Assembly: GCA_021845885.1 (NCBI GenBank) | Contig: JAJZVB010000007.1 | Coordinates: 1-34,443 of the forward strand | Origin: Pseudomonadota bacterium | Lineage (GTDB): Bacteria; Pseudomonadota; Gammaproteobacteria; Burkholderiales; JABEVD01 | Direction of reading: 5' to 3' | DNA length: 34,443 nucleotides | Part shown: positions 10,301-30,205 of the stretch, one piece after another | How positions within the stretch are numbered: position 1 is the stretch's first letter | Layout of the letters: each line of letters opens with the position of its first letter | Notes under the pieces: generated by a model | The model's input: the letters and a program-made list of their open reading frames with translations, nothing else | What the model was told of the DNA's origin: nothing | Databases searched by the model: none | Program-made: the position numbers and the translations under genes

Positions 10301-10418
10301 GCCAGTCTCCTTATTGAATTGGGTGATGCAATTTAATCGCTCGCATGTAAAGCAGACATTTCAGCATGGTGAAATTTTGTGACAGGCTTCGCCCTTTTTC
10401 AGTGCAAAAAAAGATTAT

Positions 10419-10435
10419 TTCACGAAACATGTGCA
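10419..10435 (+). promoter_or_regulatory. Candidate NtrC-binding dyad upstream of nasT
   Basis: TTCACGAAACATGTGCA fits the NtrC pattern TGCAC-N7-GTGCA except for one base in the left arm. Its centre is about 98 bp upstream of the start predicted from the sigma-54 promoter, the usual enhancer distance. The pair of better sites at 13809-13843 makes this more credible. Confidence 0.5.
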
Positions 10436-10498: not shown

Positions 10499-10514
10499 TG
10501 GCCCGGTTATTGCT
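10499..10514 (+). promoter_or_regulatory. Sigma-54 (-24/-12) promoter of nasT
   Basis: TGGCCCGGTTATTGCT matches TGGCACG-N4-TTGCW at every position but one, with the invariant GG and GC exactly 10 bp apart. The predicted start is near 10525, about 20 bp before the nasT ATG. Confidence 0.82.
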
Positions 10515-10545
10515 TTTAAACCACGGTGTAACTTCAGGATGTGCC

Positions 10546-11121
10546 ATGCTCAGAGTGATGCTGATCGACGAGGACGAAGAAAGGCGCGCCCTCCTGGGTG
10601 GCGCCCTGATCGAGAACGGGTATGAGATCGTATCCGAGATTTCGGGCACCCAGAATCTGTACGAGGCGGTGAAGGATGCGCATCCCGACGTGATCATTAT
10701 CGGAACCGATTCGCCCAGCCGCGACAGCCTCGAGGACATCTGCCTGTTGAGCCGGGATGCGCCGCGCCCCATCGTGATGTTCACGCATGACGGGGACGGT
10801 AAGAAGATCCGGGAGGCGATCAGGTCGGGCGTTTCGGCCTATGTCGTCGACGGATTGAAGGGCGATCGCATCAGGCCCCTGGTCGATGTCGCCATCGCCC
10901 GTTTCGAAGCGCATCAGGCGCTCGTGAGCGAACTCGAAGCCATGCAGGGCAAGCTGGCCGATCGAAAGATCGTCGAGCGGGCGAAAGGCATACTGATGCA
11001 GAAAAAAAATTGCAGTGAGGAAGAGGCTTACAGGATTTTGCGCAAAACAGCCATGGACAAGAACATGAAGCTCGTCGAAGTGGCCGGGCAATTGATCGAA
11101 ATGGCCAATCTTCTCACTTGA
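10546..11121 (+). CDS. nasT: NasT: ANTAR-domain nitrate antiterminator
   Basis: 191 residues from the ATG at 10546 (CAGGA upstream). It has an N-terminal receiver-like domain (MLRVMLIDEDEERRALL), a coiled linker near residues 125-140, and a C-terminal ANTAR RNA-binding domain (ADRKIVERAKGILMQKKNCS, then EEEAYRILRKTAMDKNMKL). NasT frees nitrate-assimilation leader RNAs from attenuation by binding twin hexaloop hairpins. In known systems the nitrate sensor NasS holds it inactive until nitrate or nitrite binds. The aspartate expected at the end of receiver strand 3 is glycine here (IIIGTDSPSRD, Gly53), so control by phosphorylation is unlikely. A sigma-54 promoter and a possible NtrC site lie upstream, and its own transcript runs into an ANTAR leader. 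Confidence 0.9.
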   Translation: MLRVMLIDEDEERRALLGGALIENGYEIVSEISGTQNLYEAVKDAHPDVIIIGTDSPSRDSLEDICLLSRDAPRPIVMFTHDGDGKKIREAIRSGVSAYVVDGLKGDRIRPLVDVAIARFEAHQALVSELEAMQGKLADRKIVERAKGILMQKKNCSEEEAYRILRKTAMDKNMKLVEVAGQLIEMANLLT

Positions 11122-11138
11122 ACAGCATAAAGGGGCTT

Positions 11139-11227
11139 TTCCCCAAAGGCGGGGAAGCGCTCCGGGACTGAAGTCCCGAAGGCAAAGGCGTCATTCCGGG
11201 TGTAAATCCGGATGGCGCCTTTTTTTA
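11139..11227 (+). ncRNA. ANTAR-type attenuator leader 1 (nasT / porin gap)
   Basis: After the nasT stop comes hairpin TTCCCC-AAAGGC-GGGGAA (11139-11156), a six-base loop with A at position 1 and G at position 4, the signature bound by ANTAR proteins. A second hairpin (CGGGAC/GTCCCG, 11163-11178) folds best with a UGAA tetraloop, so it is less canonical, although ACTGAA (A1, G4) spans its tip. The intrinsic terminator follows. In the absence of active NasT, transcription would stop before the porin and binding-protein genes. Confidence 0.75.
11184..11226 (+). terminator. Intrinsic terminator of leader 1
   Basis: AAAGGCG (11184-11190) pairs with CGCCTTT (11216-11222). The inner arms TCCGG/CCGGA close a loop of eight bases, with one bulged T, and a T-tract runs through 11226. 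It lies only 25 bp before the next start codon, as expected for an attenuator and not for an operon end. Confidence 0.8.
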
Positions 11228-11251
11228 TTGCAGCGTTTTCAGGAGAATGAA

Positions 11252-12493
11252 ATGAAAAAGTTATGGCCCAGCCTTATGCTTCTCACATCGATTCATGCCG
11301 ATGCCGATGCGCTTTCCGACATGCTGGAAGGCGGGAAGCTCAATCTGCAAATGCGCCCCCGCTACGAATTCGTGCAGCAGGACGGCAAGCCCAACGATGC
11401 CAATGCCTTCACCATGCGCACCCTGCTCGGCTACACGCTGAAACCGGAATCGGACTTCGGAGGCACCCTCCAGTTCATCAATGTGAGCAACCTCGGGCCG
11501 GTGCATTTCAACAATACCAGGAACGGGCAGACCGCTTATCCCGTCGTGGCCGACCCTGCAGTCAACGACGTCAACCAGGCTTTCGTGAGCTACGCAGGTC
11601 TTCCGCAAACCCAACTGAAATTCGGGAGACAGATCATCATCCTGGACAATTCCCGCTGGGTGGGCAATGTCGACTTCCGCCAGAACATGCAGACATTCGA
11701 TGCGCTCAGCTTTGAAAACAACAGCCTGCAGAATACGACGCTTTTCGCTTCGCACATCAGCCATGTCAAGGGAAGCTACGCGAATTTCCAGACTCCGGTG
11801 GGATACAACCTTCAACACGTGAATGTCAACCTGTTCCACGCATCGTTTTCCCCGGTGAACGGGATGAATATTTCGGCTTACGACTACTTCTACCAGGACA
11901 AAAGCTTCCCCCAAGGCGCGGCTTCGAACATTTCCAGCGCAACCCCTGGCCTGCGCCTGGATGGCGCCACAAAGGGAAAACTCAGGCTACTCTATACCGC
12001 TGAATATGCCAAACAGAGAAGCTATGGAGGAGGTCAGCCGGGGATAGACGCCCGATACGAGACGATTGGCGGGGGCGCCGCTTACGGAAGCCTTTACGGA
12101 CGCCTGGACTACGAGAAGCTGGGAGCCAATTCGACTGGAACCTATGGCCTGCAGACCCCGCTGGCCACGAAGCATATCTTCAACGGCTGGGCGGACCAGT
12201 TTCTCGTGACCCCCGGAAAGGGGCTCAGGGACGTTTTCGCAACCCTGGGAGGAAAAAAAGGGCAATTCGACCTGCTCGCCATGGTTCACGACTACAGGGC
12301 TGCTTTCGATTCGACCCATTACGGCAGCGAATGGGATCTTTCCGCATCCCGTCCTTTCACGAAGCATCTTTCCGCGAGCCTCATTTATGCCGACTACAGG
12401 GCAAAGGACGGGGCAGGTTTGGCTTTCCCTGGAACGATCGTCCCCAACGTCAATACCAGGAAAGCCTGGCTCACCCTCCTCTACAACTACTAG
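11252..12493 (+). CDS. Outer-membrane beta-barrel porin (alginate-export-like family)
   Basis: 413 residues from the ATG with AGGAG 6 bp upstream. It has a short signal peptide (MKKLWPSLMLLTSIHADA) and then alternating hydrophobic/polar strands throughout. These include GKLNLQMRPRYEFVQQDGK at the start of the barrel, KFGRQIIILDNSRWVGNVDF, and a C-terminal strand ending LTLLYNY, the aromatic end typical of barrel proteins recognised by BamA. The overall pattern resembles alginate-export/OprD-like barrels. Its place behind the ANTAR leader in the nitrate cluster suggests it lets nitrate or nitrite cross the outer membrane. That substrate is inference; no specific binding residues can be read. 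It is followed after 56 bp by the nitrate-binding protein. Confidence 0.78.
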   Translation: MKKLWPSLMLLTSIHADADALSDMLEGGKLNLQMRPRYEFVQQDGKPNDANAFTMRTLLGYTLKPESDFGGTLQFINVSNLGPVHFNNTRNGQTAYPVVADPAVNDVNQAFVSYAGLPQTQLKFGRQIIILDNSRWVGNVDFRQNMQTFDALSFENNSLQNTTLFASHISHVKGSYANFQTPVGYNLQHVNVNLFHASFSPVNGMNISAYDYFYQDKSFPQGAASNISSATPGLRLDGATKGKLRLLYTAEYAKQRSYGGGQPGIDARYETIGGGAAYGSLYGRLDYEKLGANSTGTYGLQTPLATKHIFNGWADQFLVTPGKGLRDVFATLGGKKGQFDLLAMVHDYRAAFDSTHYGSEWDLSASRPFTKHLSASLIYADYRAKDGAGLAFPGTIVPNVNTRKAWLTLLYNY

Positions 12494-12549
12494 CCCGGGT
12501 ACGGATATTGCTTTGCTTAAAAGGTCTTGGAGAATTTCAGGAGTTGAGG

Positions 12550-13803
12550 ATGAGTAAAGGAACAGATTCAGGGCGGCGTGATTTTTTCCGGCAGGGCGCA
12601 GCGCTGCTCGGCGGGGCTGCGCTGCTCGGCATGGTACCTCCGGGAGTGCGCAATTCGGCCTACGCTTCGGGTTCCGATGCACCTGAATTGAAGGAAGTGA
12701 AAATCGGCTTCATGCCTCTGACCGACTGCGCTTCCGTGGTGATCGCATCCGAATTGGGTTTCGACAGCCAATACGGCATCAAAATCGTCCCAAGAAAGGA
12801 AGCCTCGTGGGCTGCAGTGCGCGACAAACTCTTGAGCGGGGAACTGCATGCCTCCCATGTGCTGTACAGCCTGGTTTATGACGTGCAGATGGGAATAAGC
12901 GGACAGAAAACGGACATGGCCGTGCTCATGACCCTCAACAACAACGGGCAGTCCATCATGCTCTCCAGCAAGCTGAAGGAAAAAGGCATCAGCGACGGCC
13001 ATGCCCTGGAAAAGCGGGTTGCAGCAAAAAGCCGCGAATACATTTTCGCCCAGACCTTCCCGACGGGCACCCACGCGATGTGGCTGTATTACTGGATGGC
13101 CGCCCATGGAATCGATCCATTCAGGGATGTGAAAACCATCACCATTCCCCCTCCGGGGATGGTCGCCAACATGCGCATGGGCCATATGGATGGATTCTGT
13201 GCAGGCGAGCCCTGGGGATCCGTCGCCATCCGGGAAAAAATCGGTTTTGCCGTGGCATCGACCCAGGACATCTGGAAGGATCATCCGGAAAAGGTTCTGG
13301 GAACCACGCAGGATTTCGTCGACCGGTACCCGAACACGGCCCGGGCCATGGTCATGGCCCTGCTCGACGCTTCCAGGTTCATCGACGCCATGGCGAACCG
13401 GCCCAGGGTGGCGCAGATCATTGCCGGAAAAAATTATGTCGATGCCCCCAGGGACGCGATAGAAAAACGCATGCTCGGCGAGTACGAGAACGGCCTCGGA
13501 AAGACGTGGAAGGATCCGGACTACATGAAATTCCACAGGGAAGGCGAGGTGAATTTCCCTTACCTTTCCGATGGCATGTGGTTCCTGACCCAATTGAGGC
13601 GCTGGGGCCTCTTGAGGGAAGATCCGGATTACCTTGCCGTGGCGAGGAAAGTCAACAAGATCGAGCTTTACAGGGAAGCCGCTTCGCAGGTGAAGGTCGC
13701 CGTTCCCAATGACCCCATGCGTTCTTCCACGCTGCTCGACGGAAAGATTTGGGACGGGAAGGATCCCGGGGCTTATACCGAAGGTTTCGAAATCAGGGCC
13801 TGA
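12550..13803 (+). CDS. NrtA/CmpA-like nitrate-binding protein with Tat signal
   Basis: 417 residues. The N-terminus holds a twin-arginine signal (GRRDFFRQGAALLGGAALLG), so the folded protein would be exported. The mature part shows the NrtA family pattern: VKIGFMPLTDCASVVIASEL, then EASWAAVRDKLLSGELHASH, then TFPTGTHAMWLYYW and GFCAGEPWG. The family binds nitrate, nitrite or bicarbonate and feeds an ABC transporter, or, as cytoplasmic NasS, senses nitrate and restrains NasT. Here no NrtB/NrtC permease or ATPase is adjacent, and the next transporter is of the MFS type. Its position next to nasT is that of NasS, but the Tat signal argues for the periplasm. CAGGAG 6 bp upstream supports the start. 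Confidence 0.85.
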   Translation: MSKGTDSGRRDFFRQGAALLGGAALLGMVPPGVRNSAYASGSDAPELKEVKIGFMPLTDCASVVIASELGFDSQYGIKIVPRKEASWAAVRDKLLSGELHASHVLYSLVYDVQMGISGQKTDMAVLMTLNNNGQSIMLSSKLKEKGISDGHALEKRVAAKSREYIFAQTFPTGTHAMWLYYWMAAHGIDPFRDVKTITIPPPGMVANMRMGHMDGFCAGEPWGSVAIREKIGFAVASTQDIWKDHPEKVLGTTQDFVDRYPNTARAMVMALLDASRFIDAMANRPRVAQIIAGKNYVDAPRDAIEKRMLGEYENGLGKTWKDPDYMKFHREGEVNFPYLSDGMWFLTQLRRWGLLREDPDYLAVARKVNKIELYREAASQVKVAVPNDPMRSSTLLDGKIWDGKDPGAYTEGFEIRA

Positions 13804-13808
13804 CTTGC

Positions 13809-13843
13809 GCACCATCGTCGTGCATAGCGCACGGCGATGGTGC
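13809..13843 (+). promoter_or_regulatory. Two tandem NtrC-type binding dyads
   Basis: GCAC-N7-GTGC occurs twice: 13809-13823 (GCACCATCGTCGTGC) and 13829-13843 (GCACGGCGATGGTGC). The centres are 20 bp apart, two helical turns. The two sites are mirror images, so the whole 13805-13847 can also fold as a 19-bp hairpin. The centres are about 108 and 88 bp upstream of the start predicted from the sigma-54 promoter at 13898, a normal enhancer distance. Confidence 0.72.
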
Positions 13844-13897
13844 GCAAAATTCCGGTTTGCTTCGGCGCCCCGGATATCATTCAAGGTTTTATCGGGC

Positions 13898-13913
13898 AGG
13901 CACGGATGTTGCA
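13898..13913 (+). promoter_or_regulatory. Sigma-54 (-24/-12) promoter of the transporter/reductase operon
   Basis: AGGCACGGATGTTGCA matches TGGCACG-N4-TTGCA with only the first base different; GG and GC are 10 bp apart. The predicted start is near 13924, just before the ANTAR leader. Confidence 0.85.
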
Positions 13914-13934
13914 TAGGATGCAGTAGGTTTTAAA

Positions 13935-14010
13935 GGCCCCCCAATGGCGGGAGGCCGTTGACAGGACAAAGGCGTCCATGGCGGAAATTTCAGCCATGGA
14001 CGCTTTTTTA
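13935..14010 (+). ncRNA. ANTAR-type attenuator leader 2 (upstream of nitrate transporter)
   Basis: Hairpin P1 (13935-13956) has arms GGCC-CCC and GGG-GGCC around a C/A mismatch, with the loop AATGGC. Hairpin P2 (13955-13972), CCGTTG-ACAGGA-CAAAGG, has one G/A mismatch. Both loops are six bases with A at 1 and G at 4, the ANTAR consensus. P2 shares bases 13968-13972 with the left arm of the terminator, so P2 and the terminator cannot form together. NasT binding would therefore favour readthrough. Confidence 0.85.
13968..14009 (+). terminator. Intrinsic terminator of leader 2
   Basis: A perfect 11-bp stem GCGTCCATGGC/GCCATGGACGC (13972-13982 with 13993-14003) is extended by AAAG/TTTT and followed by T6. 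It ends 20 bp before the transporter start codon. Confidence 0.9.
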
Positions 14011-14029
14011 TTTTCGAAAGGAAACGGAC

Positions 14030-15241
14030 ATGAACACAAGCTTCTGGAAAGCGGGCCATGCGCCCACGCTTTTTGCGGCATTCCTTTATTTCGACATCAG
14101 CTTCATGGTCTGGGTGATGCTGGGGCCGCTCGGCGTTCAGATTGCTTCAAGCCTGGGATTGAATGCAGCCCAGAAAGGCATGATGGTGGCCACACCGGTT
14201 CTCGCGGGGGCGCTTCTTCGCATCGTGATGGGCATGCTGGTCGACCATCTGAAGCCGAGAATGGCGGGCATCATCGGGCAGATTGTGGTGATGCTTGCGC
14301 TGGCCGCAGCCTGGATGCTCGGCATTCATGATTTCAGGCAGATCCTGATCCTCGGGGCATTCCTGGGTTTTGCGGGCGCTTCCTTCGCAGTCGCCCTTCC
14401 CCTCGCTTCGCGCTGGTATCCTCCGGAACACCAGGGAACCGCGCTCGGCATCGCAGGAGCGGGCAATTCCGGCACCGTGCTGGCCGCCCTTTTCGCGCCG
14501 ACGCTCGCCCTCTGGTACGGCTGGAACAACGTCATGGGCCTCGCCCTGATTCCGCTTTGCCTCACGTTCGCAATCTACTTTTTCCTGGCGAAGGACAGCC
14601 CGGAATGCCCGCCCCCCAAGACGCTTTCCGAATACCTGCAGGTGTTGAAAGACCGCGACGCATGGTGGTTCATGTTTTTCTACAGCGTGACCTTCGGGGG
14701 TTTCGTGGGGCTCGCCTCTTCGCTCACGATCTATTTCCACGACCAGTACGGACTCGCTGCGGTCAAGGCGGGCTACTATACGGCTGCCTGCGTGTTCGCA
14801 GGCTCCCTGGTTCGCCCCATGGGCGGAGCGCTGGCTGACAGGATAGGCGGGGTCCGCACCCTTTCCTTCATGTACGTGATCGCCTCGATCAGCCTGTTCG
14901 TCATGAGCTCCGGGCTCAATGACGTGAACGCCACCCTGGCCGTATGCGTGTGCGCCATGCTGGCACTCGGCATGGGCAACGGCGCAGTTTTCCAGCTCGT
15001 CCCGCAGCGCTTCAGGAAGGAAATCGGCGTCATGACCGGTCTCGTCGGCATGGCCGGGGGAATAGGCGGATTCTATCTCGCATTCAGCCTCGGCTACTTC
15101 AAGCAGCATACCGGGGACTACAGAATGGGACTGATAATCTTCGCCGGCCTCGCCGTCCTGGCATTGACCGGATTGAGCAGCGTGAAGAAAAGATGGAGAA
15201 CCACATGGGGCGCCCTGAACCTCAGCGCTGCGAAAATCTGA
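14030..15241 (+). CDS. NNP-family MFS nitrate/nitrite transporter (NarK/NasA type)
   Basis: 403 residues with about 12 membrane helices. The nitrate-signature motifs of the NNP family are present in both halves: GIAGAGNSGTVLAALFAPTL and ALGMGNGAVFQLVPQRF. The substrate-binding arginines are probably those in LLRIVMGMLVD (helix 2) and SLVRPMGG (helix 8). It would bring nitrate into the cytoplasm for assimilation. AAAGGAAA precedes the ATG at good spacing. It is the first gene after the sigma-54 promoter and ANTAR leader, and its end overlaps the kinase/phosphatase gene. The order transporter, kinase, nirB, nirD, nitrate reductase matches the Pseudomonas nitrate-assimilation cluster as I recall it. 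Confidence 0.93.
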   Translation: MNTSFWKAGHAPTLFAAFLYFDISFMVWVMLGPLGVQIASSLGLNAAQKGMMVATPVLAGALLRIVMGMLVDHLKPRMAGIIGQIVVMLALAAAWMLGIHDFRQILILGAFLGFAGASFAVALPLASRWYPPEHQGTALGIAGAGNSGTVLAALFAPTLALWYGWNNVMGLALIPLCLTFAIYFFLAKDSPECPPPKTLSEYLQVLKDRDAWWFMFFYSVTFGGFVGLASSLTIYFHDQYGLAAVKAGYYTAACVFAGSLVRPMGGALADRIGGVRTLSFMYVIASISLFVMSSGLNDVNATLAVCVCAMLALGMGNGAVFQLVPQRFRKEIGVMTGLVGMAGGIGGFYLAFSLGYFKQHTGDYRMGLIIFAGLAVLALTGLSSVKKRWRTTWGALNLSAAKI

Positions 15242-16911
15242 TGGGCCTGCAAATCTCGCTCGGCGCGTCCAGCGAAACAGGCCGGCGCGAAAGGAACGAG
15301 GATTTCTTCGGCGCAGTGACGCCTGAAAACGGGCTTCTGGAACGCAAGGGGATACTGGTGGCCATAGCCGACGGGGTCAGCGGCAATGCGGGCGGGCGGG
15401 AAGCAGCCGAATATACTGTGAGAAGCGTCCTGGGCGACTATTATTCGACGCCCGAAACCTGGGGCATCACCCAATCGCTCGACAGGCTGCTTTCCGCTGC
15501 CAACCGCTGGCTGCTCGCCCAGAAAGGCGGATTTTCAGGCATGGCGAGCACGGTCAGCCTGCTCGTGCTAAGGGACAACCGTTATACGATCGCCCATGTC
15601 GGCGATACGCGCATCTACCTCAAGCGGGGCGAGGATTTCAGGCTCCTCACCACGGACCATGTCTGGGAGAGGCCCGATTTGCGCCATGTATTGAAACGCG
15701 CGGTGGGATTGGACCAGCATCTGATGGTCGATTACAGCGAAGGCGAATTGATGGAGAAAGACGTCTTCCTGCTCGCAACAGACGGCGTATGGGAAGTGCT
15801 CGGTCAGAAAAGGATGCACGAGATCCTCCACCTGCATGAGAATCCAGAACGATCCGCAAAAGTTCTCGTCGAAGAAGCGCTGGCCTCGAACGGCCGGGAC
15901 AATGCCACTGCCCAGGTGCTGAGGATAGAACGTCTCGGGGAAGAGAATCTTCGAGGCAGCCTCCTCGAAGGCGCCGATCTCCCCCTGCCTCCGCGGCTGA
16001 AAATCGGGCAAAGAATCGACGGGTACGAAGTGCTGGAAATTTTGCACGATTCGCGGGAAACGGTGCTTTACAAGGTGAGGGAAGGATCGAGCCGGAAAAA
16101 TTTCGTGCTGAAGACCCTGCAGCCTTCCATGGCGCGCGACGAAAAGGCATGCAGCGGCCTCCTCGTCGAGGAATGGCTGGGCAAGCGCATCCATTCCCAG
16201 TATTTCCCTCAGGTGATTCCGACCAAACGACATGCCCTCTATTACGTGATGACTTACCACGAAGGCGCAACGCTCAAGGACCATATCGAAAGCGGGCGGC
16301 ACTTCACCATCGCCGAAGCGAAGCAAATCGGCATCAGGCTGGCAAAAGGGCTTGCCGTCCTGCACAGGCTCAACATCATTCACCGCGACATCAAGCCCGA
16401 TAACCTGCATCTCGGGGAAGACGGAAAGCTGCGCATCCTCGATCTGGGCGTGGCCCTGAATCCGGCCTTGAACCGGGGCGAGCAGGATGCCAATCCGGGA
16501 ACCCCGAGCTACATGGCCCCGGAGCGCTTCGAAGGGGGTGGCGCGACATTCGCCTGCGACCTCTATGGCGCCGGCGTCACGCTTTATCATCTTCTCACCC
16601 GCAAATACCCTTATGGCGAGATCGAGCCTTTCCAGCATCCGAGATTCACCGATCCCGTTCCTCCAACGCGTTACCGCCCCGACATTCCGGCCTGGCTCGA
16701 AGCCGTCATCCTCAAGGCCGTTGCAAAAAATCCTGCGGCGCGATTCGAGTCACACGAGGAATTTCTTCTCGCCATGGAACTGGGCGAGCAATCGGCGATT
16801 CTGCCGCCTCCGCGCACGCCAGCCGGAAGCAGGCTGTTCGTCTGGCAGATCGCCGCAGCCCTGTCCATTCTGCTGAATTTCTTCCTCCTCTACCTTGCGG
16901 GGATAGGTTGA
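15205..16911 (+). CDS. Bifunctional PP2C phosphatase / Ser-Thr protein kinase, membrane-anchored
   Basis: 568 residues. The N-terminal PP2C domain (about 15-245) has RNEDFF, the metal-binding ADGVSG, HVGDTRIYL, ATDGVWE and GRDNATAQV. The kinase domain (about 270-535) has the lysine in VLKTLQP, the catalytic loop HRDIKPDNL, DLG in place of DFG (RILDLGVA) and PSYMAPE. The glycine loop (GYEVLEILHDSRE) is degenerate. One C-terminal membrane helix (LFVWQIAAALSILLNFFLLY) anchors it. It can both add and remove phosphate from Ser/Thr. GGAG at 15195 supports this start, which overlaps the transporter gene by 37 bp; an ATG at 15241 overlapping its stop is the alternative. Such a fusion recurs in nitrate-assimilation operons; its targets are unknown to me. 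Confidence 0.88.
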   Translation: MGRPEPQRCENLMGLQISLGASSETGRRERNEDFFGAVTPENGLLERKGILVAIADGVSGNAGGREAAEYTVRSVLGDYYSTPETWGITQSLDRLLSAANRWLLAQKGGFSGMASTVSLLVLRDNRYTIAHVGDTRIYLKRGEDFRLLTTDHVWERPDLRHVLKRAVGLDQHLMVDYSEGELMEKDVFLLATDGVWEVLGQKRMHEILHLHENPERSAKVLVEEALASNGRDNATAQVLRIERLGEENLRGSLLEGADLPLPPRLKIGQRIDGYEVLEILHDSRETVLYKVREGSSRKNFVLKTLQPSMARDEKACSGLLVEEWLGKRIHSQYFPQVIPTKRHALYYVMTYHEGATLKDHIESGRHFTIAEAKQIGIRLAKGLAVLHRLNIIHRDIKPDNLHLGEDGKLRILDLGVALNPALNRGEQDANPGTPSYMAPERFEGGGATFACDLYGAGVTLYHLLTRKYPYGEIEPFQHPRFTDPVPPTRYRPDIPAWLEAVILKAVAKNPAARFESHEEFLLAMELGEQSAILPPPRTPAGSRLFVWQIAAALSILLNFFLLYLAGIG

Positions 16912-16940: not shown

Positions 16941-19361
16941 ATGCAAAAACTCAAACTCGTAGTGGTGGGAAACGGCATGGCCGGCATGAAGGTCGTGGAG
17001 GAGTTGTTGAAGATCAGCCCAGACCTTTACAACATCACCGTTTTCGGCGCTGAGCCCCATCCCAATTACAACCGGATCATGCTCTCTCCCGTTCTGGCCG
17101 GGGAGCAGAATTTCGACGAAATCATATTGAACGATCTTTCCTGGTACGAAAAGAATAACATCAGGCTGCATCTTGGAAAAAAGATCGCCAGGATAGAACG
17201 GAGCAGGCGTATTGTCCAAACGGAAGAAGGACTGGAGGCGGAATACGACAGACTGCTTCTGGCCACGGGATCGAACCCCCTGATCCTTCCCGTTCCCGGA
17301 AAGGACCTGGAAGGCGTGATCTCCTATCGGGACATTCACGACACGCAAGCCATGATCGAGGCATCGAAAACCTGCAAAAATGCAGTCGTGATAGGCGGCG
17401 GACTGCTCGGACTGGAGGCGGCGAACGGCCTGAAATTGCGCGGCATGGACGTGACCGTCGTGCATCTCGCTCCCTGGCTGATGGAGCGCCAGCTCGACAG
17501 AACCGCAGGAAAAATGCTGCAAACGGAGCTGGAAAAAAAAGGGTTGAAGTTCCTCATGGAAAAAAAGACGGAGGAAATCATTGGAAATAACGGCAAAGTT
17601 TCCGGCCTGAAATTTTCCGGTGGAGAGGAAATCCCCGCGGACATTGTCGTGATGGCGGTGGGGATCCGGCCCAACATATCCCTTGCCCAGTCGGCTGGGA
17701 TCCATTGCGACAGGGGAATCGTGGTGGACGACACGATGCAGACCTATGACCCCCGAATTTATGCGGTGGGGGAATGCGTTTCCCACAGGGGGAAGGCCTA
17801 CGGCCTCGTCGCCCCGCTTTTCGACATGGCGAAAGTCTGCGCCAATCATCTCGCAATGATGGGAATAGGGCGCTACACGGGCTCTTTCACCGCGACGAAA
17901 CTCAAGGTCACGGGGGTGGACCTTTTTTCCGCCGGCAATTTCGAAGGAGAGGGCGAGGCCATCGTGCTCAACGACGCAGCCGGCGGCGTATACAAGAAGA
18001 TATTGATCAATCAGGGGAAAATCATCGGAACGGTGCTCTACGGCGACACCGTCGACGGGCAATGGTATTTCAGGATGCTGAAGGAAGGACAGGACATCTC
18101 CGAAATACGCAATCACTTGATGTTCGGTCAGAACCACCTCGGCAATGCCGGACACGAAGGGCACAGCCAGGCGTCCCTGATGACGGACGACATGGAGGTG
18201 TGCGGCTGCAACGGCGTGTGCAAGGGAACGATCACCAAGGCGATCAAGGAAAATGGGCTGTTCACCGTCGACGATGTGAGGAAGCACACCAAGGCTTCCA
18301 GCTCATGCGGCTCCTGCACCGGGCTCGTCGAACAGATTCTGGCTTCCACGCTGGGCGGGGGGTATGCGCCGAAGACGAGCACGGAAAAGCCGGTCTGTGC
18401 CTGCACCGATCATACCCATCAGGACCTGAGGCGCGCGATCAGGGAGGAAAAGCTGCTTTCCATTCCGGAGACGATGGCTTTCATGAACTGGAAAACGCCG
18501 AACGGCTGCGCCACCTGCCGTCCCGCCCTCAATTACTATCTCGTCTCGACCTGGCCGCACGAGGCGCAGGACGACCCCCAGTCGCGCTTCGTCAACGAAA
18601 GAATGCACGCCAACATCCAGAAGGACGGGACTTTTTCGGTCGTTCCGAGAATGTACGGCGGCATCACGAATCCCGAGCAGCTGAGAAGAATCGCCGACGT
18701 CGCGGAAAAATACCAGGTGCCCATGGTGAAAGTCACGGGAGGGCAGCGCATCGACCTGTTGGGCGTCAGGCGCGAGGATCTTCCGGCCATGTGGGCCGAC
18801 CTCGACATGCCTTCGGGCTATGCCTACGGAAAATCCATTCGTACCGTCAAGACCTGCGTGGGCAGCGAATTCTGCCGATTCGGGACTCAGGATTCGACGA
18901 AGCTCGGCATGACGATAGAGATGGCTTTCGACAGGATGTGGGCTCCCCACAAGGTGAAAATGGCGGTCTCCGGCTGCCCCAGGAATTGCGCCGAATCGAC
19001 CATCAAGGATGTGGGCATCATCGGCGTGGAATCCGGATGGGAAATTTATGTGGCGGGAAACGGCGGGATCAAGGCTGAAGTTTCGCATTTTTTCGCCAAG
19101 GTGAAGACTGACCAGGAAGCCATGGAATATTCCGGCGCCTTCCTCCAGCTCTACAGGGAGGAAGCCTGGTATCTGGAAAGGACGGTCCACTGGATAGCCA
19201 GGGTGGGGCTGGATTATGCGAAAAGCCGGGTCGTCGAGGACGAGAAGGACCGCAAGGCACTGTACCAGCGCCTGCTTTATGCCCTTTCCGGGGAAAGGGA
19301 TCCGTGGAAATCCGTGGTTGAAAGCAGGGCGAAGCCCTTGTTCGAATTTGTGGAGGCATGA
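16941..19361 (+). CDS. nirB: NirB: assimilatory nitrite reductase, large subunit
   Basis: 806 residues, a normal NirB length; AAGGAG 6 bp upstream. The N-terminal FAD/NAD(P)H half shows VVGNGMAGMK and the second nucleotide fold VVIGGGLLGLEAANGL. BFD-like [2Fe-2S] segments follow (EVCGCNGVCKG with SSCGSCTGL; VCACTD with GCATC). The C-terminal sulfite/nitrite reductase half includes the siroheme/[4Fe-4S] cysteines in TCVGSEFCRFGTQDS and SGCPRNCAES. It reduces nitrite to ammonium with six electrons from NAD(P)H in the cytoplasm. Its TGA overlaps the nirD start. It lies 29 bp after the kinase gene in the same operon, so it should answer to both NtrC/sigma-54 and NasT. Confidence 0.97.
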   Translation: MQKLKLVVVGNGMAGMKVVEELLKISPDLYNITVFGAEPHPNYNRIMLSPVLAGEQNFDEIILNDLSWYEKNNIRLHLGKKIARIERSRRIVQTEEGLEAEYDRLLLATGSNPLILPVPGKDLEGVISYRDIHDTQAMIEASKTCKNAVVIGGGLLGLEAANGLKLRGMDVTVVHLAPWLMERQLDRTAGKMLQTELEKKGLKFLMEKKTEEIIGNNGKVSGLKFSGGEEIPADIVVMAVGIRPNISLAQSAGIHCDRGIVVDDTMQTYDPRIYAVGECVSHRGKAYGLVAPLFDMAKVCANHLAMMGIGRYTGSFTATKLKVTGVDLFSAGNFEGEGEAIVLNDAAGGVYKKILINQGKIIGTVLYGDTVDGQWYFRMLKEGQDISEIRNHLMFGQNHLGNAGHEGHSQASLMTDDMEVCGCNGVCKGTITKAIKENGLFTVDDVRKHTKASSSCGSCTGLVEQILASTLGGGYAPKTSTEKPVCACTDHTHQDLRRAIREEKLLSIPETMAFMNWKTPNGCATCRPALNYYLVSTWPHEAQDDPQSRFVNERMHANIQKDGTFSVVPRMYGGITNPEQLRRIADVAEKYQVPMVKVTGGQRIDLLGVRREDLPAMWADLDMPSGYAYGKSIRTVKTCVGSEFCRFGTQDSTKLGMTIEMAFDRMWAPHKVKMAVSGCPRNCAESTIKDVGIIGVESGWEIYVAGNGGIKAEVSHFFAKVKTDQEAMEYSGAFLQLYREEAWYLERTVHWIARVGLDYAKSRVVEDEKDRKALYQRLLYALSGERDPWKSVVESRAKPLFEFVEA

Positions 19362-19663
19362 TGGAAAACTGGATCAGGGTATGCGAAGTCGAGGACATTC
19401 CGGTCCTCGGAGCGAGGGTATTGAAAGGACGGGGAATCGCCTTGTTCCGGGACGGCAGCGGCGCGGTCTTCGCGCTCAAGGATAAATGCCCACACAAGGG
19501 CGGGCCGCTTTCCCAGGGTATCGTGAGCCGGGGGCAGGTCACCTGCCCCCTTCACGGCATGACTATCGGGCTTTGCGACGGACGCGCGGCCCCGCCCGAC
19601 GAAGGCTGCACTGAAACCTATTCCGTCAAAATCGAATCGGGTCAGGTTTTCCTGTGGATCTGA
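19361..19663 (+). CDS. nirD: NirD: nitrite reductase small subunit with Rieske [2Fe-2S] motif
   Basis: 100 residues. It has a Rieske-type fold with the complete ligand set: CPHKGGPL (Cys, His) and CPLHGMTI (Cys, His). Many enterobacterial NirD proteins have the fold but lack the ligands, so this one probably holds a real cluster and passes electrons to NirB. Two adjacent ATGs are possible (19358 and 19361); GGAGG at 19352-19356 gives better spacing to the second. It overlaps nirB by one base and the nitrate reductase gene by 10 bp, which indicates tight translational coupling. Confidence 0.93.
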   Translation: MENWIRVCEVEDIPVLGARVLKGRGIALFRDGSGAVFALKDKCPHKGGPLSQGIVSRGQVTCPLHGMTIGLCDGRAAPPDEGCTETYSVKIESGQVFLWI

Positions 19664-22320
19664 ACCCATCCGTCACGGAAGTGCGCTCGACCTGCTGCTA
19701 TTGCGGGGTGGGCTGCGGCGTGCTCATCCGCACGAATGGCGGGGTCGTCGAATCGGTCAGGGGAGACCCGGACCATCCGGCCAATTCCGGGAAGCTGTGC
19801 ACCAAGGGGGCGACGCTCCACCTGACTGCAACTCCTGAAGGCAGGCTGCTGTATCCCGAATTGCGCGGCGAAAAAGGCATGGTCAAAGTTTCCTGGGTCG
19901 ACGCGCTCGATCATGCCGCGCAGCGCTTTGCTGAAACGATCAGGCAATACGGTCCGGATTCGGTCGGATTCTACATTTCCGGTCAGCTCCTCACCGAGGA
20001 TTATTACGTTTTCAACAAGCTGGCAAAGGGACTGATCGGCACCAACAACATCGACACCAATTCCAGGCTTTGCATGTCTTCCGCCGTGGCCGGCTACAAG
20101 TTGACCCTCGGTGCGGATGCCCCGCCGGCCTGCTACGAGGACATCGATCATGCGCAATGCATCCTGATCGCGGGATCCAACACGGCCATCGCCCATCCCG
20201 TGCTCTTCAGGCGCATCGAGGCGGCGAAGGAAAAAGGGGTGAAGCTCGTCGTCATCGACCCGAGAAGAACCGACACTGCGCGCGCAGCGGACCTTCACCT
20301 GCCCATTCTTCCAGGCACGGACGTCGCCCTTTTCAACGGCATGCTGCATGTGCTGATCTGGGAAAACCTGGTCGACGTCGATTATATTTCGAATCATACC
20401 GAGAATTTCGACGCCTTGAAGGCGATTGCAAGGGAATACACGCCGGGTCTGGTCTCGAAGCTGTGCGGAATAGCCGAGGAGGAACTCATCCAGGCAGCCA
20501 GATGGTTCGGAGAATCGGCTTCCTCCCTTTCCCTTTATTGCCAGGGGCTCAACCAGTCCATCCACGGAACGGAAAAGAATGCAGCGCTCATCAATCTGCA
20601 TCTTGCCACGGGGAAAATAGGAAAACCCGGCTCGGGCCCTTTTTCCCTCACCGGGCAGCCCAACGCCATGGGCGGAAGGGAAGTCGGTGGCATGGCGAAC
20701 CTGCTTTCAGCCCACAGGGATCTTTCCAATCCCCTGCACAGGAAGGAAATCGCCGAATTCTGGAAAGTGGGCAAAATCCCGGAAAAGCCCGGGAAGAGTG
20801 CGGTGGAAATGTTCGAGGCCCTGGAAAAAGGAGAAATCAGGGCATTATGGATTGCCTGCACCAATCCGGCCCAATCGATGCCCGACCTGAAAAAGGTTTT
20901 TTCCGCCCTGGAAAAGGCTGAATTCGTCGTGGTTCAGGATGCATTCCGCGGAACGGAGACCGCACGCTTCGCCGATCTCCTTCTTCCCGCCTCGACCTGG
21001 GCGGAGAAGGAAGGCACGGTGACGAATTCCGAGCGCAGAATCACGCATGTGAAACCGGCCATTTCCCCTCCCGGGGAGGCGAGGGCCGACTGGGAAATCG
21101 CATCGAACTTCGCATCGAGGCTGGGCAGGCTCATGGGAAAGGAAGGCCTTTTCCCCTACGATCAAGTCGAGGAAATCTTCCTTGAGCATAGGGAAACGAC
21201 GCGGGGGCGAGACCTCGACATCACCGGGCTCGATTATGCCGTGCTCGACGAAAAAGGCCCTCAGCAATGGCCATGCCCTGAAGGAACAGGCAAAAAGCGG
21301 CTCTATGAAGACGGCCTCTTCCCGACGGAAAGCGGCCGGGCGAAATTTTATGCTGCGGAATATGCAGGGACTTCCGAACAAACCGATTCAAGTTATCCCT
21401 TCCATCTCACCACGGGGCGCCTGCGCGACCAGTGGCACGGCATGACCCGCACGGGAAGGCTGGGCAGGCTTTTCAGCCACGAACCCGAAGCCTGTCTTTC
21501 CATGAACCCGGAAGACATGAGAAGGCACCATCTCGATTCGGGCGACACCGTCCGGGTGAAAAGCAGAAGGGGCGAGATGATCTTGTCCGTCAGGGAGGAT
21601 GAAGACTTGAGGCCGTCGCAGGTTTTCCTGCCCATGCACTGGGGAAGACGCTTCGTCGGAAGGCAGGGCGTGAACGCCCTCACCCTCGGGCATTTCGACC
21701 CGATATCCAAGCAGCCCGAGCTCAAGCATGCTGCGGTATGCGTAGAGAAAGTCGATCTTTCATGGCGGCTTTCAGTCATGAGAAGCGGGCGGGCGCTCGA
21801 ATACCTGGAAAAGGCGCAGCCGCTTTTCGACTGTTTCGACTACGTGAGCTGCACTTTTTTCGGCAGGGAGGAAAACTTCTTTTCCATGAATGCGGGCTCG
21901 ATCGACAGGCCCGCAAGCGATATTCTCGAAAGCATCGATGCCGTGTTCGACATGGAAGGAGAATGTCTCGCCTACCGCGATGCGGCACTGGGCATAGACA
22001 AGAAAGTGAAAGTGGAAAACGGCAGAGCAGTCGGCGTCAGGCTCGCAGGAGAAAACGCAGCCCGGGAATGGCTCATGGAAACGATGGCTTCCCGAGCCGA
22101 CATTTCGCTTTACAGACAGTGGCTGCTCGCCCCTTCCCTCCCCGCCTTCGAAAGACAGGGCAGGATCGTCTGCAACTGCCTGGGCGTGTCCGAATCCCAG
22201 ATCGTCGAGTCGCAACTGGATCTCATCGGGCTGCAGGAAAAATTCAAGTGCGGCACCCAGTGCGGCTCATGCCTGCCCGAAATCAGGAAGCTGATTCAGG
22301 CGAGGCGGCTCACTGCATGA
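19654..22320 (+). CDS. nasC: Assimilatory nitrate reductase, molybdopterin catalytic subunit
   Basis: 888 residues with a GTG start inside the end of nirD. The N-terminal [4Fe-4S] motif is CCYCGVGCG with the last cysteine in GKLCTKG. The bis-MGD oxidoreductase core follows, including NNIDTNSRLCMSSAV (the cysteine as likely Mo ligand) and SGPFSLTGQPNAMGGREVGG. The C-terminal dinucleotide-binding domain is near residues 580-700. After about 100 less familiar residues a BFD-like [2Fe-2S] domain closes the protein (CNCLGVSESQI … KCGTQCGSCLPEI). It reduces nitrate to nitrite in the cytoplasm. No separate electron-transfer subunit is encoded here, so ferredoxin, flavodoxin or an unlinked reductase must supply electrons. 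It is the last gene of the operon; its 3' end overlaps the convergent lipoprotein gene by 11 bp. Confidence 0.95.
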   Translation: MDLNPSVTEVRSTCCYCGVGCGVLIRTNGGVVESVRGDPDHPANSGKLCTKGATLHLTATPEGRLLYPELRGEKGMVKVSWVDALDHAAQRFAETIRQYGPDSVGFYISGQLLTEDYYVFNKLAKGLIGTNNIDTNSRLCMSSAVAGYKLTLGADAPPACYEDIDHAQCILIAGSNTAIAHPVLFRRIEAAKEKGVKLVVIDPRRTDTARAADLHLPILPGTDVALFNGMLHVLIWENLVDVDYISNHTENFDALKAIAREYTPGLVSKLCGIAEEELIQAARWFGESASSLSLYCQGLNQSIHGTEKNAALINLHLATGKIGKPGSGPFSLTGQPNAMGGREVGGMANLLSAHRDLSNPLHRKEIAEFWKVGKIPEKPGKSAVEMFEALEKGEIRALWIACTNPAQSMPDLKKVFSALEKAEFVVVQDAFRGTETARFADLLLPASTWAEKEGTVTNSERRITHVKPAISPPGEARADWEIASNFASRLGRLMGKEGLFPYDQVEEIFLEHRETTRGRDLDITGLDYAVLDEKGPQQWPCPEGTGKKRLYEDGLFPTESGRAKFYAAEYAGTSEQTDSSYPFHLTTGRLRDQWHGMTRTGRLGRLFSHEPEACLSMNPEDMRRHHLDSGDTVRVKSRRGEMILSVREDEDLRPSQVFLPMHWGRRFVGRQGVNALTLGHFDPISKQPELKHAAVCVEKVDLSWRLSVMRSGRALEYLEKAQPLFDCFDYVSCTFFGREENFFSMNAGSIDRPASDILESIDAVFDMEGECLAYRDAALGIDKKVKVENGRAVGVRLAGENAAREWLMETMASRADISLYRQWLLAPSLPAFERQGRIVCNCLGVSESQIVESQLDLIGLQEKFKCGTQCGSCLPEIRKLIQARRLTA

Positions 22321-29317: not shown

Positions 29318-29333
29318 TGGCATGATTATTGCT
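29318..29333 (+). promoter_or_regulatory. Sigma-54 promoter of second PEP-CTERM gene
   Basis: TGGCATGATTATTGCT matches TGGCACG-N4-TTGCT with a single change, with GG and GC 10 bp apart. The predicted start is near 29344. Upstream there are two CATGTGA and one CATGTGC copies (between 29193 and 29272), possible enhancer elements. Confidence 0.8.
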
Positions 29334-29362
29334 GATAATACAGAAATTTCCGGGAAAGCATG

Positions 29363-30205
29363 ATGAACAGGTATTACCAGATTCTGATCAGCGCAGGCAT
29401 AGGGCTCGTGTTGCCGAACATTGCTCACGCCTCATTTTCCTCCGACGGCCAGACCTATACCTATTCGACCGCTTCAGGCGCGAACGACTCGGTAGGCGAA
29501 TCCGTCAGCGCGCAGGCCAGCTTCAGCATCTCGGGCGACTCCATGGTGGTGACCCTGGTCAATCTGCAATCCGGCATCACGAGCGTTGGCCAGAACATCA
29601 GCTCGGTTTTCTTCGACATCAACAATTGCGGTTCCGTCCTCAGCCTCTCATCCCAGAATTACAGCAGCCAGGGGAACGAAATCACCGTAGGCAGCGGCGG
29701 CACCATCACCGGCACCCAAAGCAATGCCTCCCTGGACCATTGGCAGATTTCCTCTTCGGGAAACCAGATTTCTCTGAACGACCTTTCAGGAAACGGCAGT
29801 CCTGACCAGACCGTGATCGGTCCAGCGAATTCGCAAGGCGATTATTCAAGCGTGAACAAGTCCATCTATGACAATGCGCCTCACAATCCCTTCGTCCAGA
29901 ACGAGGCGCAGTTCACGGTCAAATTTCCCCCGGGGCAACTGGGCGACAACGTCTCGATCTCCAACGTCAGGATCGGCTTCGGAACGGCTCCGGGCGACAA
30001 CCAGAATTGCTACATTTCCCCAGGACGCCTTCCTGAACCCGGAACGCTGCCTTTGCTGGTGATCGGCGCGGCCGCCATCGGCATGATCAGGAAAGGCAGG
30101 TCGCTTTACGGCTGCGCATCGGGCATCTCCCCCCTGTCTCATGCGCGGGGCTTGACCCTCGACGCCGCGAAGGCGCTTTCTTTCTCAGCGAAATTCGCTG
30201 TCTGA
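29363..30205 (+). CDS. PEP-CTERM protein with unusual C-terminal extension
   Basis: 280 residues. A signal peptide (cut near NIAHA) precedes a Ser/Gly/Asn-rich, beta-type secreted domain without catalytic motifs that I can see. A complete PEP-CTERM signal, LPEPGTLPLLVIGAAAIGMI plus the basic RKGR, ends near residue 246. Unlike normal members, which stop here, the frame continues for 34 more residues (SLYGCASGIS…) up to the stop, directly abutting the convergent phosphorylase gene. A single-base change in the TAC three codons after RKGR would restore a stop at the expected place, so loss of the original stop is likely. GGGAAAG upstream fits the second of two ATGs (29360, 29363). Confidence 0.82.
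   Translation: MNRYYQILISAGIGLVLPNIAHASFSSDGQTYTYSTASGANDSVGESVSAQASFSISGDSMVVTLVNLQSGITSVGQNISSVFFDINNCGSVLSLSSQNYSSQGNEITVGSGGTITGTQSNASLDHWQISSSGNQISLNDLSGNGSPDQTVIGPANSQGDYSSVNKSIYDNAPHNPFVQNEAQFTVKFPPGQLGDNVSISNVRIGFGTAPGDNQNCYISPGRLPEPGTLPLLVIGAAAIGMIRKGRSLYGCASGISPLSHARGLTLDAAKALSFSAKFAV

Follow-up and report, generated by a model that had tools for sequence, protein, structure and literature searches.

Genes of the nas locus

We analyzed a stretch of 34,443 nucleotides from a bacterium of the Burkholderiales (GenBank assembly GCA_021845885.1, contig JAJZVB010000007.1), hereafter called the window. It carries a nitrate assimilation cluster that reads, in order, nasT, a porin gene, a gene for a binding protein with a Tat signal, a regulatory region, narK, a gene for a PP2C phosphatase-kinase fusion, nirB, nirD, and nasC (Table 1). 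The open reading frame of nasT extends from 10510 to 11121, and its probable ATG puts the start at 10546. The gene lies 2.7 kb upstream of the narK leader, which thus has an ANTAR gene nearby. The porin is a candidate nitrate porin, nitrate being its presumed substrate. Outside the genus, the nearest narK genes belong mostly to betaproteobacteria, and in most of the loci fetched the gene for the PP2C-kinase fusion adjoins narK.

Table 1. Genes and predicted regulatory features of the nas cluster (positions in the window)
Feature	Position	Strand	Evidence or detail
NtrC-like dyads upstream of nasT, imperfect	10391-10405, 10420-10434	+	One mismatch each; weak when taken alone
Sigma-54 promoter upstream of nasT, TGGCCCGGTTATTGCT	10499-10514	+	Counterpart in congener G008: TGGCATGAACATTGCT
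nasT, receiver-like and ANTAR domains	10546-11121	+	PF03861 4e-23; PF00072 2e-8
Second ANTAR attenuator, gap between nasT and porin gene	11132-11227	+	Hexaloop-pair pattern search
Porin-leader P1	11138-11157	+	Loop AAAGGC, 11145-11150
Porin-leader P2	11181-11192	+	Loop AAAGGC, 11184-11189
Porin-leader terminator	about 11184-11226	+	Folding z -5.8 over 11122-11235
Outer-membrane beta-barrel porin (Alginate_exp-like)	11252-12493	+	PF13372 4.5e-7
NasS/NrtA-like nitrate-binding protein (NMT1_2), Tat export signal SGRRDFFRQGAALLGG	12544-13803	+	PF13379 8.8e-97
Mirror hairpin, 19-bp stem and 5-nt loop, holding two NtrC dyads in mirror orientation	13805-13847	+	Folding; not conserved in the congener
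Distal NtrC-type dyad, GCACCATCGTCGTGC	13809-13823	+	Exact GCACN7GTGC, centre 13816
Proximal NtrC-type dyad, GCACGGCGATGGTGC	13829-13843	+	Exact GCACN7GTGC, centre 13836
Sigma-54 -24/-12 promoter of narK, AGGCACGGATGTTGCA	13898-13913	+	11/12 positions vs TGGCACGNNNNTTGCA
ANTAR hairpin P1, hexaloop AATGGC (13943-13948)	13935-13956	+	GGCC-C-CCC[AATGGC]GGG-A-GGCC, one C.A mismatch; compensatory changes across five leaders
ANTAR hairpin P2, hexaloop AAAGGC (13968-13973)	13964-13977	+	GGAC[AAAGGC]GTCC
Intrinsic terminator hairpin and T run, ending at about 14009	13968-14007	+	-27.1 kcal/mol, z -7.9
narK-type MFS nitrate/nitrite transporter	14030-15241	+	TIGR00886 2e-89, 300.2 bits, just under cut-off 311.7
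PP2C phosphatase - Ser/Thr kinase fusion (start approximate)	15244-16911	+	PF00069, PF13672
nirB, assimilatory nitrite reductase large subunit	16941-19361	+	TIGR02374 948 bits, over cut-off
nirD	19358-19663	+	TIGR02378 1.8e-20, 73.1 bits, just under cut-off 74.65
nasC/nasA-type molybdopterin nitrate reductase	19654-22320	+	NF047855 NasC 7.8e-163, under cut-off; position after nirBD

NtrC-type sites and the sigma-54 promoter upstream of narK

An earlier, sequence-only reading of this DNA had placed two GCAC-N7-GTGC dyads, 20 bp apart, between the binding-protein gene and narK. Both are present as exact matches, the only ones in the window. Pattern searches of the whole genome found 31 such sites as against six for the reversed control pattern, a five-fold difference. 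The near-perfect -24/-12 promoter of the same reading was confirmed as well, and the required GG-N10-GC spacing is present. Transcription is predicted to start at about 13923-13924, and relative to a start near 13924 the dyad centres lie at about -108 and -88. It should be mentioned that sigma-54 matches of this grade are common by sequence alone (with two or fewer mismatches, 6 were observed in the window and 6.0 expected), so that the significance of this element lies in its position and conservation. NtrC is encoded in the genome (682 bits, over the curated cut-off), and an RpoN DNA-binding domain is present; together with the upstream dyads, these genes are what an NtrC/sigma-54 promoter calls for, and we infer that NtrC binds here.

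At glnA, the same dyad is found upstream of a sigma-54-like element, and this is the only case that we kept as support. The dyad near amtB (contig C156) overlaps the start of the gene and forms no clean enhancer, and an identical 15-mer on contig C46 lies inside an open reading frame and was dismissed as a coincidence.

Two further observations concern the same motifs at other genes. Elsewhere in the genome, a PP2C phosphatase gene (G000:C49, L025:1002-1999), a relative of the phosphatase-kinase gene of the nas operon, lies downstream of a GCACN7GTGC dyad and a sigma-54 element matching at 11 of 12 positions, suggesting that it may be under NtrC control. In the window, a sigma-54-like match, TGGCATGATTATTGCT, is located at 29318-29333, just upstream of an open reading frame (29360-30205) that has no Pfam match.

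The ANTAR leader of narK

Downstream of the promoter, the sequence-only reading had described two hairpins with A1/G4 hexaloops and a terminator whose left arm shares bases with the second hairpin. All of this was borne out. The loops of P1 and P2 both have A at the first and G at the fourth position, the dual hexaloop of ANTAR/NasT leaders, and the loop and right arm of P2 form part of the left arm of the terminator. Because P2 and the terminator have the ten bases 13968-13977 in common, the two structures are mutually exclusive.

The pairing of P1 is supported by compensatory changes. Across five leaders from three species, four of the eight pairs are changed on both sides and 90% of the cells are paired; the covariation score is 0.487, as against 0.285 in shuffled alignments, and 4 of 500 shuffles score as high, in a set of related leaders from one genus. 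P2, with four types, has weaker pairing support (49/500 shuffles as high), and its set too comprises five or fewer leaders of that genus. A sixth leader, from the nirB gene of the congener G004, was excluded from the P1 count, as its outer P1 stem could be aligned only with gaps. A MAFFT alignment of three full leaders misaligned G004, and one of six leaders put a gap in the wrong place in P1 of the G004 nirB leader; both were left unused for counting, and the hairpins were aligned piecewise.

At gathering thresholds, Rfam gave no match in the window or in two congener loci. The narK RNA model (RF03032), which opens with a -24/-12-like GGCAC...TTGC and also contains a hexaloop hairpin and AAAGACG, aligns over the leader at 28.8 bits, under its gathering cut-off of 43.2. 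The P11 model (RF00625), which carries GGCAC, a CAACG-type loop, AAAGGCG, and a terminator, does so at 26.8 bits, under its cut-off of 70. In other words, the leader belongs to neither family at these thresholds. Over nine genomes of the genus, RF03032 made two matches, both under the cut-off, and missed the leader of the window itself; it is therefore a poor probe in this genus.

Conservation in the genus and beyond

The leader of the congener G008 retains the sigma-54 element (15 of 16 bases identical), P1, P2, the terminator, and the proximal dyad. Its hexaloops and stems are kept, in P1 with compensatory changes. The proximal dyad is a perfect GCACCGTCATGGTGC, and the distal one agrees with the NtrC consensus at only 9 of 12 positions. 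In G004, a sigma-54 promoter and ANTAR leader precede nirB (L099:8049-8120), and an ANTAR leader precedes the porin gene (L099:3478-3570), so that within one genus the attenuators stand at different genes.

Among 369 genomes of the class, three contain a match to a strict pattern that combines the -24/-12 element, both hexaloops, and their spacing, the genome of the window being one of them, and none matches the reversed control; given the strictness of the pattern, this count is a floor and not a frequency. The other two matches come from two further genera, both outside the family; one immediately precedes nirB, and the other lies a short distance upstream of an NrtA-like gene. Directly upstream of narK, the full leader was found only in G008 among the 80 loci searched. 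Most of the betaproteobacterial narK genes that were fetched lack this leader directly upstream, and narK often comes after nirBD.

A second promoter and attenuator in the same cluster

The sequence-only reading counted three stacked nitrogen controls at 13805-14029. The count holds for that region, but it is incomplete for the window, where a sigma-54 promoter of nasT and a second ANTAR leader before the porin gene had gone unmentioned (Table 1). The stretch of G008 that corresponds to the two imperfect dyads of nasT contains CGCACTGATTGGGTGCT and TACACCGATTTGGTGCA, and the tandem NtrC-like sites are clearer there. In the porin leader, an additional hairpin, CGGGACTGAAGTCCCG, lies between P1 and P2, and the P11 model reaches 28.3 bits, under its cut-off. 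G008 keeps the porin leader, and G004 has a similar one before its porin gene.

A proposed two-stage switch and its alternatives

We propose that the narK-kinase-nirB-nirD-nasC operon is controlled by a two-stage NtrC/sigma-54/NasT gate, a reading to which we assign a probability of about 0.88. Under nitrogen limitation, phosphorylated NtrC would bind the dyads, some 90-110 bp upstream of the predicted start, and activate sigma-54 RNA polymerase at 13898-13913. The transcript from near 13924 would by default fold the terminator, and transcription would stop before narK. When nitrate or nitrite activates NasT, its ANTAR domains would hold the P1/P2 hexaloop pair; P2 would then occupy the bases of the left arm of the terminator, the terminator would be blocked, and the polymerase would read on. 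The unit of nasT, porin, and binding protein appears to be controlled in the same way, through a sigma-54 promoter and an attenuator of its own: nasT would be made whenever nitrogen is low, and the uptake genes downstream of it only with active NasT. The order NtrC, sigma-54, ANTAR attenuator is that of the sequence-only reading, and it is well supported by the genes for NtrC, RpoN, and NasT, by the conservation in G008, and by the compensatory changes in P1.

The palindromes upstream of the promoter can also be seen as something else, namely as by-products of a stem whose primary role would be to form the 3' end, a terminator or a stabilizer, of the nasT-porin-binding-protein mRNA. The hairpin at 13805-13847 immediately follows the stop codon of the binding-protein gene, and its 19 pairs (18 Watson-Crick and one G-U) fold at -38.2 kcal/mol with z -8.2. 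Any two tandem dyads are complementary at 8 of the 19 positions by definition, but at least 10 of the 11 further pairs are formed as well, for which the chance is about 1e-5; the mirror symmetry is thus real and not random. However, no T tract follows the hairpin on either strand, and in G008 a 7-base deletion has taken much of the left arm and spared the proximal dyad, which is still perfect; selection on the hairpin should have had the opposite effect. Nothing therefore supports the hairpin as a terminator or as a shared element. The positions of the dyads, on the contrary, are suitable for NtrC enhancers, and tandem NtrC-like sites lie at a similar distance from nasT in G008. We consider a primary role at the 3' end unlikely, and of the earlier claim about this hairpin its existence is confirmed and its service as a 3' end is unsupported. 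Given the hairpin, one dyad implies the other; the two NtrC sites are not independent pieces of evidence, and "two NtrC sites" and "mirror symmetry" amount to a single observation.

Another view would take the leader for a small RNA element resembling P11 and ending at about 14009, and not for an attenuator controlled by NasT. Rfam lists P11 as a Pseudomonas sRNA, its model aligns over the leader, and a stop near 14009 would produce an RNA about 85 nt long. However, the hexaloop pair, the overlap with the terminator, and the nearby ANTAR gene make up the pattern of NasT leaders. P11 itself probably lies in the nirBD operon of P. aeruginosa. Antitermination within that operon is reported, according to the title of Romeo 2012 as cited in PMC8092218. 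We regard an sRNA-type element as very improbable here. Less credible still is the view that a sigma-54-like match and palindromes came to stand together by chance: matches of roughly this quality do occur in the window at the chance rate, but the ordered arrangement is kept in G008, its sigma-54 and hexaloop part recurs in other families with zero control matches, and an ANTAR gene is adjacent.

The source of the nitrate signal

NasS has no signal sequence of the NrtA type and is predicted to be cytoplasmic (PMC3795266). No cytoplasmic NasS was found in the genome, whose assembly is 96% complete and may thus lack such a gene: the sole match to PF13379 (NMT1_2) is the binding protein at 12544-13803, which carries a Tat signal, so that the system is better named NasT than NasS-NasT, a two-component pair in which NasS is cytoplasmic and free of a signal sequence. 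The NMT1_2 protein of G008 likewise has a Tat signal, and the NasT-linked binding protein of G004 has no twin arginine. No NrtB match was found in the genome of the window or in that of G008. Among the closest relatives of the binding protein in other genera (62-67%) are binding proteins whose genes are followed by those for NrtB and NrtC. Either the protein at 12544-13803 is an orphaned transporter component, with sensing done elsewhere, or it senses nitrate itself.

The sequence-only reading described an AND gate of low nitrogen and nitrate. Its logic matches the report on nirBD of P. aeruginosa, but its nitrate step assumes a cytoplasmic sensor of the NasS type, while the only NMT1_2 protein bears a Tat signal. 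It can be speculated that, in this species and in G008, NasT is under the control of an exported nitrate-binding protein with a Tat signal, or works with no NasS, so that sensing takes place in the periplasm or has passed to another protein, and that the NtrC enhancer pair doubles as the hairpin 3' end of the nasT-porin-binding-protein mRNA; we think it unlikely that all of this holds.

Comparison with known systems and implications

Dual A1/G4 hexaloops are a general target of ANTAR proteins (PMC3369931). In the leaders of Klebsiella nasF, the target of NasR, and of Enterococcus eut, the target of EutV, such hairpins lie upstream of a competing intrinsic terminator, as they do here (PMC3369931), whereas the ANTAR proteins of both systems differ in architecture and Klebsiella NasR has its own nitrate-sensing domain. 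NasT of Azotobacter vinelandii acts on stem-loops in the leader of the nitrate assimilation operon nasAB, as stated where Wang et al. 2012 is cited in PMC12316311. The nirBD operon of P. aeruginosa is under RpoN, NtrC, and NasT, according to the statement in PMC8092218 that cites Romeo 2012. As described there, the leader of nirBD-PA1779-cobA shares with ours the three regulators, the pathway, and the order nirB-nirD-nasC within the operon. In contrast to P. aeruginosa, the leader here precedes narK, narK and the kinase gene come before nirBD, and a second attenuator stands at the porin gene. The nasT promoter of the window resembles that of P. denitrificans, in which nasT needs an NtrC site (PMC5424462), and a survey of sigma-54 regulons predicted sigma-54 promoters for a gene group including nasT, mainly in beta- and gammaproteobacteria (PMC12316311).

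Layered control by NtrC, sigma-54, and NasT has already been described in Pseudomonas, and the leader reported here is a further example of a known switch. With it, the range of this integrated nitrogen/nitrate switch grows to include an uncultured genus of proteobacteria that has a small genome and whose closest matches outside the genus are betaproteobacterial, and a single cluster uses the switch twice, in one case for a porin gene. The nas cluster also offers a compact setting for the question of how the signal reaches NasT without an evident cytoplasmic NasS.
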